Source of the DNA: Archaeoglobaceae archaeon
GTDB lineage: Archaea > Halobacteriota > Archaeoglobi > Archaeoglobales > Archaeoglobaceae
Assembly: GCA_015520485.1 (NCBI GenBank)
Contig: WAPX01000044.1
Coordinates: 1-64,000, forward strand
Reading direction: 5' to 3'
Length of the DNA stretch: 64,000 nt
The translations under genes were made by a program, and so were the position numbers. The notes beneath the pieces are model-generated. The model was not told where the DNA came from, made no database searches, and saw only the letters and a program-made list of their open reading frames with translations. Positions 35,873-41,481 of the stretch are shown piece after piece; within the stretch, counting starts at the first letter, position 1; each line of letters starts with the position of its first letter.

Positions 35873-36526
35873 GTGTTCAGGAAAGGTCTTGCTTCCAGTC
35901 TTCCAATAGCCATTGGTTACTTTCCGGTAGCTGTAACTTTTGGTTTGAGTGCAGCAGCATTAGGATTTAGCAGAGTTGATACACTTCTCGCATCACTGCT
36001 GATATTTGCAGGAGCGAGTCAGTTTGCACTCATCTCCCTTATATCCTGCCCTCTGGATGCAGTCGTAATTCCGGTATTCCTGAATTTAAGACATATAGTT
36101 TATAGCTGTATAATATCTCAAAAATTTGAAATAAAAAGACCGTACATAACAGCATTTGGATTGACTGACGAAGTTTTTGCCACATCTCTGAAAGCTCCCA
36201 AGAATGAAAGGTTTATCTGGGGGCTGGAAACCGGAGCATACCTGTCATGGGTATTGGGGACACTGGTGGGGGTTCTCGGTGGCACGGTCTTACTGTCTGA
36301 AAAAATTTTAACTCCCTCTCTTGTGTTTGCGCTTACAGCGCTGTTCCTCGTACTCTTAATTCCAAATTTTAAAGGATATCACGCATTATCTGCTTTAATC
36401 GGAGGAACCATTGCTCTGGTGTTTCAGTACCTCGGGCAAGCTTCAACGGGAATTCTGCTTGCAGGAATTTTAAGCCCGATAGCAGTTCTGAAACTCAAAG
36501 GCAGGGATAAAAAGGTGGTAAAGTGA
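35873..36526 (+). CDS. azlC: AzlC family branched-chain amino acid exporter subunit
   Basis: The 217-residue membrane protein starts with the AzlC signature GLASSLPIAIGYFPVAVTFGLSAAALGFS. FAGASQFALISLI, LNLRHIVYS and the GLTDEVFA segment follow, with five or six hydrophobic spans. AzlC and AzlD form a two-part exporter shown in Bacillus to affect branched-chain amino acid analogue resistance. The GTG start has GGAGG eight bases before. It is coupled to the XRE-cupin gene upstream and overlaps azlD by four bases. Substrate in this organism is unknown. Confidence 0.93.
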   Translation: MFRKGLASSLPIAIGYFPVAVTFGLSAAALGFSRVDTLLASLLIFAGASQFALISLISCPLDAVVIPVFLNLRHIVYSCIISQKFEIKRPYITAFGLTDEVFATSLKAPKNERFIWGLETGAYLSWVLGTLVGVLGGTVLLSEKILTPSLVFALTALFLVLLIPNFKGYHALSALIGGTIALVFQYLGQASTGILLAGILSPIAVLKLKGRDKKVVK

Positions 36527-36864
36527 TAGAGCACGACGTGGTGATATTACTGGTTGCGGCAGGGACGTATCTATCGAGATATTTACCGGTACGCTTTAAC
36601 GAGAAATTCAGGGAGCTTAAAGGCTTTGACGAGTTCCTGACGTATTCATCAACAGCCCTGATATCTGCGCTTTTCGTAACGTCGTTCGTATCCTTTCCGG
36701 TTGATTTGAGAAACACGGGTATAGGTATTGTGGCATTAGCTTTCGTCTATGCGTCCTACAGAAAATGGGAAAATCTGGGATTTTCTGTATTAACTGGAGT
36801 TGCCGTGCATTTGGCATTATCTTTAGCCTGTATTTCATTACTATTTATGAAAACAATCTTATGA
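36523..36864 (+). CDS. azlD: AzlD family branched-chain amino acid exporter subunit
   Basis: The 113-residue protein has four hydrophobic helices. AGTYLSRYLPVRF at the start and the EFLTYSSTALISALFVTSFV block fit the AzlD family. It overlaps azlC by four bases with GTG as start and GGTGG just ahead. Together with azlC it forms a small exporter. The two bases between regulator and azlC suggest that the upstream cupin protein controls export in response to an amino acid. Confidence 0.9.
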   Translation: MIEHDVVILLVAAGTYLSRYLPVRFNEKFRELKGFDEFLTYSSTALISALFVTSFVSFPVDLRNTGIGIVALAFVYASYRKWENLGFSVLTGVAVHLALSLACISLLFMKTIL

Positions 36865-36963
36865 AAAATCAATTTAAAAATTACCAACACAACTCGGAAG
36901 GTATCAAGATTGACACCCCAGTAATATATAGAATGCCACAAAACAAAAATAAAAACCAAAATA

Positions 36964-36971
36964 TTTAAATA
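36964..36971 (+). promoter_or_regulatory. TATA box of the aromatic operon
   Basis: TTTAAATA inside AAAATATTTAAATACA is a near-consensus archaeal TATA box. Its centre lies 25 to 26 bases ahead of the ATG at 36993, which is the normal distance to the transcription start. The transcript should therefore begin at or within a few bases of that ATG. Confidence 0.75.
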
Positions 36972-36992
36972 CACCCGGGCAAACCCTCTGTA

Positions 36993-37097
36993 ATGGCTCT
37001 CACCCACGCTGCGGGAACAAACACCGGAACAGGTGCGGGGAGAGCCGGGGCTCTCTATTATGGCTTTAGCTGGAGCTTTTGCTATTTTAGCTTCTAA
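36993..37097 (+). CDS. Aromatic-rich leader peptide of the aromatic amino acid operon
   Basis: The open frame encodes 34 residues: M-A-L-T-H-A-A-G, a Gly/Ala/Thr-rich middle, then ALYYGFSWSFCYFSF and a TAA stop. Eight of the last 13 residues are aromatic (Tyr 22, 23, 31; Phe 25, 29, 32, 34; Trp 27), so all three end products of the downstream pathway are represented. No folded protein of this kind is known to me. The TATA box spacing predicts that the mRNA begins at this AUG, so it would be translated leaderless. The stop lies 52 bases before the ATG of the ADH synthase gene. I read it as a regulatory peptide whose codons sense charged tRNA-Tyr, -Phe and -Trp, as in bacterial phe, trp and his leaders. 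Translation is not proven. Confidence 0.8.
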   Translation: MALTHAAGTNTGTGAGRAGALYYGFSWSFCYFSF

Positions 37098-37145
37098 AGT
37101 CGTCGTTTAGAGAGTTGTTTAACAGCTCTCTATTCGGGGGGTGTG
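36995..37145 (+). promoter_or_regulatory. Probable ribosome-mediated attenuator of the aromatic operon
   Basis: Five complementary segments alternate: S1 GGCTCTC 36995-37001, S2 GAGAGCC 37040-37046, S3 GGCTCTCT 37049-37056, S4 TAGAGAG 37108-37114 and S5 CTCTCTA 37126-37132. S1:S2 gives 7 pairs, S2:S3 gives 6 with a CGGG loop and S3:S4 gives 7. S4:S5, extended to TAGAGAGTTG with CAGCTCTCTA, gives 10 with a TTTAA loop. Neighbouring pairings exclude each other. The aromatic codon run lies exactly between S3 and S4, and S5 ends three bases before the GGGGGGTG ribosome site (37136-37143) of the first enzyme. A ribosome stalled on the first Tyr codon (37056) would cover S2/S3 and leave S4:S5 free. 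One reaching the stop would approach S4. Whether the output is termination or translation initiation is open. Confidence 0.65.
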
Positions 37146-37149
37146 CTGT

Positions 37150-37941
37150 ATGCTCGATGTCGGCAAAAAAAGGCGTTTGAAAAGGATTATGCCCGGCGGC
37201 AAAACCCTCATAGTGCCAATGGACCACGGGATAAGCTCTCCGGTGAGCGGAATTCAGAAAATAGACGAAATTCTCGAAAGAATAGACGGCCTGTGCGATG
37301 CGGTTGTTCTTCACAAAGGGGTCGTGAAGAATTCAGAATACGTGGAGAACATGAATTCAGCGCTCATTGTGCATTTAAGCGGTTCAACAAAATACCACGC
37401 AAACGAAAAGGTGATCGTGTGCTCGGTGGAAAAGGCAATAGCTCTTGGAGCTGATGGTGTCAGCATACACGTGAACATCGGAAGCGATAACGAGTGTGAG
37501 CAGCTCAGAGATGCTGGGATGGTTTCGGAGCTGTGCGACAGCTACGGAATTCCGCTTCTCGCAATGATGTACCCGAGAGGCAGGGACGTTGAAGTCAGCA
37601 CGGAAACGGTAAAGCACGCTGTGAGAGTTGGATACGAACTGGGGGCTGACATAGTCAAAACAAGCTACACCGGAAGTGTGGAGAGCTTTTCAGAAGTCGT
37701 GGAGTACTGCGATGTACCCGTTGTTGTGGCTGGAGGAAGTAAGAAAAACGGCGAAGAGCTTCTGGAGGAGGTCAGAGGTGCTGTGCTCGCGGGTGCAGCA
37801 GGAGTTGCGATAGGCAGAAACGTGTTTCAGGCTGACAGACCGGAGGAGGTAGTAAAGGATTTAAGGCGTGTGATACACGGTAGCACAACCGGAGTGGAGG
37901 TGCTCTATGAAGGAAATCTGGTTGCTGACAGAAGGGGATAG
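37150..37941 (+). CDS. aroA': 2-amino-3,7-dideoxy-D-threo-hept-6-ulosonate (ADH) synthase
   Basis: The 263-residue class I aldolase TIM barrel has TLIVPMDHGISSP near the N-terminus, GADGVSIHVNIGS, LLAMMYPRG, and GADIVKTSYTGS with the Schiff-base lysine. VVVAGGSK and AGVAIGRNVFQ form the phosphate site. It joins 6-deoxy-5-ketofructose 1-phosphate and aspartate semialdehyde in the archaeal route to dehydroquinate, which replaces DAHP synthase. I take ATG 37150, which has GGGGGGTG six bases ahead, rather than GTG 37141 inside that site. First enzyme of the aromatic operon, directly behind the leader peptide. Confidence 0.94.
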   Translation: MLDVGKKRRLKRIMPGGKTLIVPMDHGISSPVSGIQKIDEILERIDGLCDAVVLHKGVVKNSEYVENMNSALIVHLSGSTKYHANEKVIVCSVEKAIALGADGVSIHVNIGSDNECEQLRDAGMVSELCDSYGIPLLAMMYPRGRDVEVSTETVKHAVRVGYELGADIVKTSYTGSVESFSEVVEYCDVPVVVAGGSKKNGEELLEEVRGAVLAGAAGVAIGRNVFQADRPEEVVKDLRRVIHGSTTGVEVLYEGNLVADRRG

Positions 37942-38923
37942 CTGGGATGAAGTAAAGGAGCAGGTAAAGGATGCGATAGAGATAGGATTTACCGGAGTTG
38001 TGGTTGACGAGGCTTACGCTGACAAAGCCAGAAAACTCGGCAGAATAGGCGTTGTTGCAAAAAAGGGAATGAGGGGGAAGGTTGACGGAAAAGACGCTTA
38101 CTTCATAGATATCAGCTCTGCAGACGAACAACTCAAGGCAATAGAGCTGTCGAGCGATGCAACCTACCTTTTCCTGCGGTTCTCGGACTGGAGAATAATT
38201 CCGCTCGAAAACCTGATAGCGATGAAAAAGGGGGCTAAGCTGATAGCCGAGGTGAACAGCATAGATGACGCCAAGGTCGTGCTCACAACTCTCGAAAAAG
38301 GTGCTGACGGAATAGCAATCAGAGGTGCTGACAGAGAAGAGATGCTCGAATTCCACAGAGCCGTAGCTGAGGAGGCTGGAAAACTTAACCTCAAGAGTGC
38401 GGTGGTGGAGGAGATAAGACCGCTTGGAGTTGGAGAGAGGGTGTGCGTCGACACAGTAACTATGATGAGCGTCGGAGAGGGAATGCTCGTCGGCAGCAGT
38501 GCGGCGTTCATGTTCCTCGTTGGAAGTGAGAGCGAGGAGAGCGAATACGTTGCTTCGAGACCTTTCAGGGTTAACGCCGGATGCGTAAGCTCTTACGTGA
38601 AGGTTGGAGAGAAAACGAAGTACTTAGCCGAGCTGAAAGCAGGGGATGAGGTGGAAATAGTCAGACACGACGGCGCAGTCAGGAAAAGCTACGTGGGCAG
38701 GGTAAAGATCGAGAGAAGGCCACTCGTCCTGATAAGGGCGAAGGCTGGAAACGAGGAAGGCGTGGTCATACTGCAGAATGCCGAAACGATAAAACTGGTG
38801 GCTCCGGGTGGAAAGCACGTTTCAGTTGCAGAACTGAAGCCGGGAGATGAAGTTCTCGTATGGCTTGGAAAGAAAGCAAGGCATTTTGGAGTTGGTGTTG
38901 ACGAGTACATAGTTGAAAAGTAG
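37907..38923 (+). CDS. aroB': 3-dehydroquinate synthase II (archaeal, NAD-dependent)
   Basis: The 338-residue protein belongs to the archaeal dehydroquinate synthase II family. It begins KEIWLLTEGDSWDEVKEQV, with central VLTTLEKGADGIAIRG, RVCVDTVTMMSVGEGMLVGSS and FLVGSESEESEYVASRPFRVNAG. Near the C-terminus lies LVRHDG-like EIVRHDGAVRKSYVGRVKIERRPLVLI. It oxidatively deaminates and cyclises the ADH synthase product to 3-dehydroquinate. Its start overlaps the upstream gene by 35 bases, so they are tightly coupled. Confidence 0.94.
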   Translation: MKEIWLLTEGDSWDEVKEQVKDAIEIGFTGVVVDEAYADKARKLGRIGVVAKKGMRGKVDGKDAYFIDISSADEQLKAIELSSDATYLFLRFSDWRIIPLENLIAMKKGAKLIAEVNSIDDAKVVLTTLEKGADGIAIRGADREEMLEFHRAVAEEAGKLNLKSAVVEEIRPLGVGERVCVDTVTMMSVGEGMLVGSSAAFMFLVGSESEESEYVASRPFRVNAGCVSSYVKVGEKTKYLAELKAGDEVEIVRHDGAVRKSYVGRVKIERRPLVLIRAKAGNEEGVVILQNAETIKLVAPGGKHVSVAELKPGDEVLVWLGKKARHFGVGVDEYIVEK

Positions 38924-38990: not shown

Positions 38991-39614
38991 ATGGCTGGCA
39001 GAATAGTCGTTTCAGCGAGAAACATGGATGAGACAAAAGCTGACGCTGATGTCGTGGAGTTCAGACTGGACCTGTTTCCGTCCCTCCCCTCTCTGGAAGA
39101 GGTAAAATCGGTAAAAAAGGTGAAAATACTGACGGTAAGAAGGCCCGAAGACGGCGGGAAGTTTGAAGGTGACGAAGAGGAGAGACTTGCAATCTTCAGA
39201 AAATACTGCGAACTCTTCGATTACGCAGATGTGGAAGTTTACGCAGGTGACGAGTTCTTCGACTTGCCCTGCAGAATCATAGAGTCCTACCACAACTTCA
39301 AAAGAACGCCGGACTTCGAAGAGTTGAAAGACATGGTCGAAAGCAGGAGGGGCGAGATATTCAAAATAGCGACGATGGGAAAGGACAGAAAAGATGTACT
39401 GACCGTAACAAAACTCCTCTGCGAGTACGATAAAGTCGTGGCGTTTCTTATGGGAGAGAGTTTTTCGTTCACAAGGGTTCTCGCAGTCGCTCTCGGCGCC
39501 CCTTTCATATACTGTTCGGCAGAAAAAGCAGTTGCACCCGGGCAGTTAAGCGTGGATGAAGCGAAACTCGTTTTGAGCGTGCTGAACAATGGTAAAAGTT
39601 TTTGCTTAAAGTGA
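38991..39614 (+). CDS. aroD: 3-dehydroquinate dehydratase, type I
   Basis: The 207-residue TIM-barrel enzyme has VVEFRLDLFPSL (substrate-binding Glu and Arg), KILTVRRPEDGG, CRIIESYHNFKRTP with the catalytic His, and EIFKIATMGKDRKD with the Schiff-base Lys. It converts 3-dehydroquinate to 3-dehydroshikimate. The gap of 67 bases from aroB' contains A+T-rich DNA (GATTTTAATTTATTTTAG) that could hold an internal promoter. The stop is four bases before the TyrA-PheA gene. Confidence 0.94.
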   Translation: MAGRIVVSARNMDETKADADVVEFRLDLFPSLPSLEEVKSVKKVKILTVRRPEDGGKFEGDEEERLAIFRKYCELFDYADVEVYAGDEFFDLPCRIIESYHNFKRTPDFEELKDMVESRRGEIFKIATMGKDRKDVLTVTKLLCEYDKVVAFLMGESFSFTRVLAVALGAPFIYCSAEKAVAPGQLSVDEAKLVLSVLNNGKSFCLK

Positions 39615-39618
39615 GAGT

Positions 39619-41481
39619 ATGAAACCAAACTTTCTTATTTACGGTGCTGGAAGAATGGGAAAGTTCTTTAGAGACTTCTTCTTTTCGAGAGGTTACAGGG
39701 TAAAGTGTTACGACGTTTTGCCCGAGAGAAGAGATACGGAAAGTCTGGATGGAGACGTTGTATTCCTGTGCGTGCCGATGCAGTGCATAGGTGAGGCTGT
39801 CGAGGACATAGCTGTGAGAAATCCAAAAGCACTCGTCGTGGACATAGCGTCGATAAAGTCGTTTTCAATACCCCACCTTGACTCGTCTGGCCTGGATTAC
39901 ATGAGCATTCACCCGATGTTCGGGCCTGACAGCGAGATCGGTTTATCAAACATAATAGTCGTCAGAAAAAGCGGCAGAAAAGAGGAAGAAGTCGTACTGC
40001 AGGAGTTCAAAAATGCCGGTGCGATTCTGAGCGAGTTAACACCGGAAGAGCACGACGCAAAGATGGCTGAAATTCAGGGACTGAGTCACTTCCTGCTCGT
40101 TGGAATGGCGTACTTTCTTAAAGGCAGGTTCAGCAGGGATGATTTGAAGTTTGCATCACCCATCTTCGCCACGATGTACAAGCTCGCTTCGAGGATAGTC
40201 AATCAGGACTGGAGCATGTACTGGCACATACAGAGAAATGCCGAAGTTATCAGAGAAGAGCTGATAAAAAGTCTGGAAGAGCTGGACAGGAAGTTCAGAG
40301 ACAAAAAGAAGTTTGAAGAAATATTTTCCACTCTGAAAGAAGAGTTTGACGATTACACCAACAGCACGCTAATACTCGACGCCTGCAAGGCGACGTGGGA
40401 CGTTTCCACGATGGAGCTGCTGAGGGGTTACATAAGAGTTGTTGATTCGCTCATACTGAGGCTCGTAGAGAGGAGAACTTCTGCTGGAAGGAGAATAGCC
40501 CTTCACAAGAGAGACAGAAATGAACCGATAGAAATAGCGGAGGTCGAGGAGGTAAAGATAAAGGATTTGCTCTCGAAAACTGACCTCAGCCCCATTCACG
40601 TTCAGGAGATATTTGAGAGGATAATGGACTTAACGAAGGAGGAAGAATACAGGGTTACCGGGATAAAGAAGACGTTGGCCGTTCTCGGTCCGGCAGGAAG
40701 TTTCAGCGAAGAGGCGGCACTGAAGCTCGTAGGCTCTCGATTGCCCCTGAAGTACTGCAGCAACACGGATGAGATAATAAAGTGCGTGGAAAGCGGAGCT
40801 GCAGATTACGGACTTGTGCCGATAGAGAATTCCGTAAACGGGACTGTAATCGCAGTTCTGGACGCCCTGATGAGCGCCGACGTTGAGGTTTTCGGAGAAA
40901 CAACTCTCAAAATAGTCCACTGCCTCGTGGCAAAGAGGCCTCTCGAACTGAAGGACATAAGGGCTGTCTACTCTCACCCACAGGCAATAGCCCAGTGCAT
41001 GGGGTTCATAAACAACTACCTGAAAGCAGAACTCCACTACACCAAAAGCACTTCTGATGCCGTGTCGCTGCTCGACGACTACAGTGCTGCCATAGTTTCT
41101 GAGAACGCAGCCAGACTGTACAGGCTTTACATACTGAGAAAAGGAATTCAGGACGTAAAAACAAACGAGACGAGGTTCTACCTGATAAGAAAGAGGGGAA
41201 GAGGTGAAAGAAAGGGAAACATCACATCGCTCTTCTTTGGAGTTGAGGACAGGCCGGGCGCTCTGAAGGACGTGTTAGAGGTTTTCTACAGCAGAGGCAT
41301 AAACCTGAGAAAACTCGAATCGAGGCCTGCAAGAACCGGTCTTGGAGACTACGTTTTCTTCGTCGAGGTTGAGAAAAAACTCGAAGAGGAAGACCTCAAA
41401 GAGCTGAGAGAAGTGACGACTTTTTACCACGTAATAGGCGTTTTCGACCACGTGAAAAAACTTGACGTTTGGAATAATTAA
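39619..41481 (+). CDS. Trifunctional prephenate dehydrogenase / chorismate mutase / prephenate dehydratase with ACT domain
   Basis: The 620-residue fusion has four parts. A TyrA dehydrogenase comes first (about 1-270; NAD-binding IYGAGRMGKFFRDFFFSRG, HPMFGPDS, EIQGLSHF). An AroQ chorismate mutase helix unit follows (about 275-345; LLRGYIRVVDSLILRLVERR). A periplasmic-binding-like prephenate dehydratase is third (about 352-530; AVLGPAGSFSEEAA, VPIENSVNGTV, NETRFYLI). A C-terminal ACT domain (about 538-615) has GALKDVLEVFYSRGINL and ESRP for Phe binding. It thus makes both 4-hydroxyphenylpyruvate and phenylpyruvate from chorismate. This arrangement is known in Archaeoglobus. The operon thereby covers Tyr and Phe supply, with allosteric control by Phe through ACT. 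Confidence 0.94.
   Translation: MKPNFLIYGAGRMGKFFRDFFFSRGYRVKCYDVLPERRDTESLDGDVVFLCVPMQCIGEAVEDIAVRNPKALVVDIASIKSFSIPHLDSSGLDYMSIHPMFGPDSEIGLSNIIVVRKSGRKEEEVVLQEFKNAGAILSELTPEEHDAKMAEIQGLSHFLLVGMAYFLKGRFSRDDLKFASPIFATMYKLASRIVNQDWSMYWHIQRNAEVIREELIKSLEELDRKFRDKKKFEEIFSTLKEEFDDYTNSTLILDACKATWDVSTMELLRGYIRVVDSLILRLVERRTSAGRRIALHKRDRNEPIEIAEVEEVKIKDLLSKTDLSPIHVQEIFERIMDLTKEEEYRVTGIKKTLAVLGPAGSFSEEAALKLVGSRLPLKYCSNTDEIIKCVESGAADYGLVPIENSVNGTVIAVLDALMSADVEVFGETTLKIVHCLVAKRPLELKDIRAVYSHPQAIAQCMGFINNYLKAELHYTKSTSDAVSLLDDYSAAIVSENAARLYRLYILRKGIQDVKTNETRFYLIRKRGRGERKGNITSLFFGVEDRPGALKDVLEVFYSRGINLRKLESRPARTGLGDYVFFVEVEKKLEEEDLKELREVTTFYHVIGVFDHVKKLDVWNN

Follow-up and report, generated by a model that had tools for sequence, protein, structure and literature searches.

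A conserved aromatic-codon leader, probably a codon-sensing uORF, precedes the aromatic amino acid operon of Archaeoglobales

Background

A short upstream open reading frame (uORF) ending in a cluster of Phe, Tyr and Trp codons lies directly before the operon aroA'-aroB'-aroD-tyrA/pheA in almost all of the Archaeoglobales genomes examined, and aromatic amino acids are therefore probably sensed through the translating ribosome in these archaea. The conservation of this aromatic uORF is beyond chance. We consider it quite likely, from comparison of the sequences, that the frame is a translated, leaderless, codon-sensing regulatory uORF, which would set the expression of the operon via charged Phe, Tyr and Trp tRNAs.

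In bacteria, the control of amino acid operons by leader peptides is textbook knowledge. For archaea, a 2021 paper states that neither attenuation nor antitermination is known as a mechanism (PMC8448881). Described regulators of aromatic genes in archaea are DNA-binding proteins, namely TrpY in Methanothermobacter and Tar/TK0271 in Thermococcus (PMC6737238). These likewise control aromatic biosynthesis operons, but they act as DNA-binding proteins at promoters and not through a leader ORF. An earlier note on the DNA analysed here had taken the leader to be without a described archaeal precedent, and a search of open-access papers agreed with it: neither such a precedent nor a description of an aromatic leader in Archaeoglobales was found there.

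Methods

The window is the whole 64,000-nucleotide stretch of archaeal DNA that was analysed. Orthologues of AroA' were sought in 60 relatives and then in 57 genomes of the order. Operon-type loci with sufficient upstream sequence were retained, comprising 30 loci, 14 more and two of a second family (L035 and L037). TATA boxes were scored automatically and inspected by eye, and gene identities were taken from NCBIfam models.

Results and discussion

The leader frame of the window starts with ATG and encodes MALTHAAGTNTGTGAGRAGALYYGFSWSFCYFSF followed by a stop codon, with Tyr, Phe or Trp at 8 of its final 13 residues. Re-reading of the sequence agreed exactly with the coordinates (36993-37097, + strand), frame, peptide and aromatic count claimed before. 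The identities of the four downstream genes were confirmed by NCBIfam models (Table 1). By its predicted gene content, the operon is the entry plus the Phe/Tyr branch of aromatic biosynthesis. A TATA box lies 29 nt before the ATG of the uORF, and the transcript therefore probably starts at or next to this ATG, which would make the uORF probably leaderless, at the very 5' end of the transcript. Directly upstream, on the same strand (35873-36864), an AzlC-like protein, scoring below the family cut-off, and then a small hydrophobic protein are encoded, the two probably forming an exporter of branched-chain amino acids.

Table 1. Positions of the leader elements and operon genes in the window
Feature	Position	Strand	Basis
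TATA box TTTAAATA	36964..36971	+	Sequence; 29 nt before uORF ATG
Aromatic leader uORF, 34 codons, probably leaderless	36993..37097	+	Conserved at 46/46 loci
5' hairpin, GGCTCTC (36995-37001) pairing with GAGAGCC (37040-37046)	36995..37046	+	Window's genus, two sister species; not kept family-wide
CTCTCTA, alternative partner for TAGAGAG of the 37108-37132 hairpin	37051-37057	+	Lineage-specific
Aromatic codon tail YYGFSWSFCYFSF, with two TTT-AGC dicodons	37056..37094	+	Sequence and codon statistics
Hairpin TAGAGAG...CTCTCTA between uORF stop and Shine-Dalgarno	37108..37132	+	Lineage-specific; most relatives without it
Shine-Dalgarno GGGGGGTG of aroA'	37136..37143	+	Sequence; ~39 nt past uORF stop
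aroA', 2-amino-3,7-dideoxy-D-threo-hept-6-ulosonate synthase (ADH synthase)	37150..37941	+	TIGR01949 above cut-off
aroB', 3-dehydroquinate synthase II	37907..38923	+	NF002627 above cut-off
aroD, type I 3-dehydroquinate dehydratase	38991..39614	+	TIGR01093 above cut-off
Fused tyrA - chorismate mutase - pheA	39619..41481	+	NF008865 above cut-off; prephenate dehydrogenase and chorismate mutase models also match

A short aromatic frame was expected upstream of aroA' in relatives as well, and it was found at every locus: an aromatic uORF precedes the operon aroA' at 46/46 Archaeoglobales loci, from 14 genera and two families. Being related, the loci do not count as independent; they carry 42 distinct tails. 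All 46 leaders start with ATG, and a TATA box is placed 28-32 nt before it at 41 loci by automatic scoring and at most of the others by eye. No such leader was found before the ADH synthase paralogues of the same genomes (L194-L198, for one of which TIGR01949 was confirmed) or before a further copy in genome G025 (L193), and a comparable leader was not found before related ADH synthase genes outside the order, in relatives of the class and phylum. Inverted-repeat-like sequences around TGTNAC/GTNACA occur near the TATA box at L195-L198 (the Archaeoglobales ADH synthase paralogue, L195 belonging to the window's own genome at C44:72110-72710, outside the window) and at L040-L045 and L049 (related genes of other archaea); they are possibly a candidate operator of some transcription factor.

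The signal resides in the codons. The last 14 codons contain a mean of 8.3 aromatic codons per leader, and over the 46 loci 381 aromatic codons are in frame vs 49 and 90 in the two other frames. Dinucleotide shuffles gave an expectation of 163 (z=26.7), each leader being significant singly (p<0.05). Within genera, an aromatic residue is retained in 128 of the 162 single-base differences at aromatic codons, that is 79% vs a neutral expectation of 21%. Among the 42 distinct tails, Phe, Tyr and Trp make up 59% of the residues and are the only ones enriched; His is absent from all of them, and Leu, Ile and Val together amount to 3%, compared with 26% in the genes of a family member, which makes the signal specific to Phe, Tyr and Trp. 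All three of these residues are present in 42/46 leaders. The tail composition agrees with the end products of the common pathway, which are these three amino acids, and speaks against a generic hydrophobic peptide. Tyr is encoded by TAT in 40 of 50 tail codons, as against a TAT usage of 20-30% in genes, and such disfavoured codons would be the expected choice of a starvation sensor.

A strong Shine-Dalgarno sequence (SD; GGAGGTG or GGGGGTG) follows the uORF stop in most lineages. It begins 1-39 nt past the stop at 41/46 loci, which is the erm-type arrangement of a uORF closely upstream of an SD. In the window's genus (g1) and in g8 and g12, the SD serves aroA' directly, 12-39 nt past the stop; in g1 and g8 the distance is about 20-39 nt, mostly beyond the footprint of a terminating ribosome. 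In eight genera (g2, g4, g5, g7, g9, g10, g11 and g13; 30/30 loci), there is an SD at 1-18 nt past the stop, called SD1, and behind it a further short ORF (ORF2), which ends between -30 and +22 nt relative to the aroA' start, the geometry of translational coupling as reviewed in PMC12548453. The start codon of ORF2 switches between ATG, GTG and TTG in g5 and g10 within an otherwise fixed context. SD1 is absent from g6 and from the second family. In the eight ORF2 genera an AT-rich, TATATA-like stretch is also present 35-45 nt before aroA'; it could be an internal promoter.

Rearranged operons indicate what the leader is linked to. In genome G035, from which the operon AroA' has been lost, an aromatic leader MHFAPYPIDFNPLSVLETSPFLFSYSFDFDFSYSFSFYRF with a TATA box, SD1 and a second ORF stands before aroD-tyrA/pheA, and in G014, also without an operon AroA', the leader MASVTLNKSCDFYLFYFSC still precedes the aro genes; the ORF that comes after it neither matches a Pfam family nor resembles AroA'. 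The leader thus tracks the pathway and not a single gene. The sole exception seen was G007 (L201; genome 81% complete), whose aro operon starts at aroB', with neither AroA' nor leader. In the complete genome of a family member (G010) the aroA' leader came first among 94 TATA-spaced uORFs (p 5e-7 vs 8e-4 for the runner-up), and a profile of the leaders run across the 57 genomes returned, besides the aro leaders, only random weak matches and no other convincing site. Two extensions were considered and rejected: inspection of trpE loci gave no convincing case of a Trp-rich leader before trpE, and no broader class of amino acid leaders emerged in G010 under a strict TATA filter.

How a codon-sensing uORF might act is suggested by the position of the SD. 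We propose, tentatively and as somewhat short of an even chance, that the position of the ribosome on the uORF gates the nearby SD site. When aromatic amino acids are plentiful, ribosomes would reach the uORF stop, terminate there and cover or out-compete SD1, which would be within their reach because it lies 1-18 nt past the stop in most genera, and the expression of the operon would be low. When they are scarce, ribosomes would stall 6-40 nt earlier on slow UUU, UAU and UGG codons and leave SD1 free. Initiation would then take place directly at aroA' in the window's genus and two others, and elsewhere at ORF2, which ends at the aroA' start and from which ribosomes would be handed on by coupling. 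In the repressed state the loss of ribosome cover may add FttA-dependent termination; a review names FttA as the probable agent of archaeal polarity (PMC12548453). Simple occlusion fits some lineages only, given the SD distance in g1 and g8 and the lack of SD1 in g6 and in the second family.

The chief rival, which we regard as unlikely, is a nascent-peptide arrest of the TnaC type, in which an abundant free aromatic amino acid or the leader peptide itself would stall the ribosome at the uORF stop, cover SD1 and repress the operon. The C-terminus is indeed conserved by position, with Phe at -3 in 35/42 distinct tails (83%), Ser at -2 in 28/42 (67%) and an aromatic residue at -1 in 86%; F-S-[FY]-stop terminates 25/42 of them, and the short distance from stop to SD1 at 30 loci would suit such an arrest. 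However, the terminal tripeptides are diverse (SYQ, FVF, FYY, FRY, FSC, FEF), unlike those of known arrest peptides, and what is conserved over 13-14 codons is mostly the aromatic class, in disfavoured codons. The archaeal leader shares with TnaC a short peptide tied to aromatic amino acids, with C-terminal residues conserved at the stop, but appears to lack a fixed arrest motif, and it differs from TnaC in its many aromatic codons and in preceding a biosynthetic rather than a catabolic operon.

Transcription attenuation of the bacterial type, by mutually exclusive hairpins and an intrinsic terminator, appears improbable. The window's leader does form competing hairpins, with segments able to pair alternatively (folding z about -3.3), and strong 5' hairpins are also found in two sister species of g1, in g7 and in g10. 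However, the 30 loci folded had no excess structure (mean leader z about -0.1, interval z about -0.35), the hairpins are not kept even within the window's genus, and mutually exclusive antiterminator and terminator hairpins were not found as a conserved pair among them, such structure being confined to the window species and, in part, its genus. Runs of at least five T occur in 10/46 uORF-aroA' intervals vs 12.1 expected, which gives no sign of a U-run terminator. Placing a ribosome at the stop or at a stalled position in the folding did not alter SD accessibility in any consistent way, at either 37 or 65°C. Since there is no general structure, no consistent SD effect and no excess of U-runs, a bacterial terminator/antiterminator is not the common mechanism. 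Rfam covariance models had no match in positions 36500-37400 up to an E value of 5. Of the leader-peptide attenuation that the earlier note had read from the sequence, the conserved aromatic leader before an archaeal aro operon therefore stands, and the bacterial-style attenuator finds no support, as conserved hairpins, a terminator, a U-run and an Rfam match were looked for and not found.

Another constraint is visible at the nucleotide level. Phe-Ser pairs in the leaders are encoded by TTT-AGC in 74 of 83 cases; TTT-AGC is strongly avoided as a Phe-Ser dicodon in genes, where its share of such pairs is 4.3% in G010 (68/1587) and 1/74 in the window, yet it predominates in the leader tails. 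Ser is AGC in 56/62 tail codons vs 2/32 ahead of the tail. The near constancy of the TTTAGC hexamer makes a second, nucleotide-level constraint likely beyond codon sensing alone, which accounts for it only partly. It might be argued that a protein binds the TTTAGC repeats of the tail as a DNA or RNA motif, for example through TRAP-like (U/G)AG triplets, and that the peptide is a by-product; the almost invariant hexamer, kept despite the disfavoured TTT before AGC, is in line with this. We nevertheless hold this quite improbable, as 74 of the 75 TTTAGC copies are in frame 0, their number and spacing vary, and aromatic codons beyond the hexamer are kept too. The TRAP family (PF02081) was found in 0/36 genomes, the control being positive in B. 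subtilis. As a candidate genome-wide operator, TTTAGCTTTAGC was rejected, its matches outside the leaders lying antisense within genes. At L022, L027, L028, L181 and L189-L192 (g7 and the majority of g10 loci), the 5' codons, with CCAGCTAAA or a close equivalent, show complementarity to TTTAGCTGG within the aromatic tail; L188 is the only g10 locus missing one of these partners, and it misses both. Finally, a functional small (membrane) peptide lying upstream by chance is hardly credible, for although the leader is kept across an order and its residues are hydrophobic and aromatic, it is composition and not sequence that is conserved, Leu, Ile and Val are nearly absent, and the link is strictly to the aro genes and not to their paralogues.

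The codon-sensing uORF that we favour resembles several known systems. Like trpL and pheL, it is a short ORF with clustered codons for the products of the pathway, and it shares with pheL, trpL and hisL a place before the operon, end-product codons near the 3' end and disfavoured codons. It differs from them in being apparently leaderless, in combining three aromatic amino acids, in standing before the first common enzyme and in having no conserved alternative hairpins or U-run terminator. Because these two defining features of bacterial amino acid leaders, alternative hairpins and a terminator, did not emerge as common features of the archaeal leaders, the archaeal leader is not classed as a member, and the bacterial leaders are regarded as its functional analogues. 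As in the translational attenuators ermC and ermB, the position of the ribosome on the uORF would govern whether the next SD is accessible; the archaeal leader would differ in that the signal is aminoacyl-tRNA supply and not an antibiotic, and in having SD proximity and a relay ORF instead of a conserved SD-sequestering hairpin.

Conclusions

It is conceivable, and we say so with more reserve than for the gating of the SD, that a leaderless sensor ORF without alternative hairpins, in which the ribosome position opens or closes an SD just past the stop and a relay ORF passes ribosomes to aroA' and shields the RNA from FttA termination, represents the first amino-acid-sensing leader ORF in archaea. 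Strong selection for a Phe/Tyr/Trp leader throughout the order makes it very probable that the sensing of amino acids by ribosomes has evolved in archaea, where it would operate on leaderless transcripts alongside an RNA polymerase that resembles the eukaryotic one. The leader offers a concrete, conserved target for work on translational gating and on how transcription and translation are coupled in archaea, the named genus Archaeoglobus among them.
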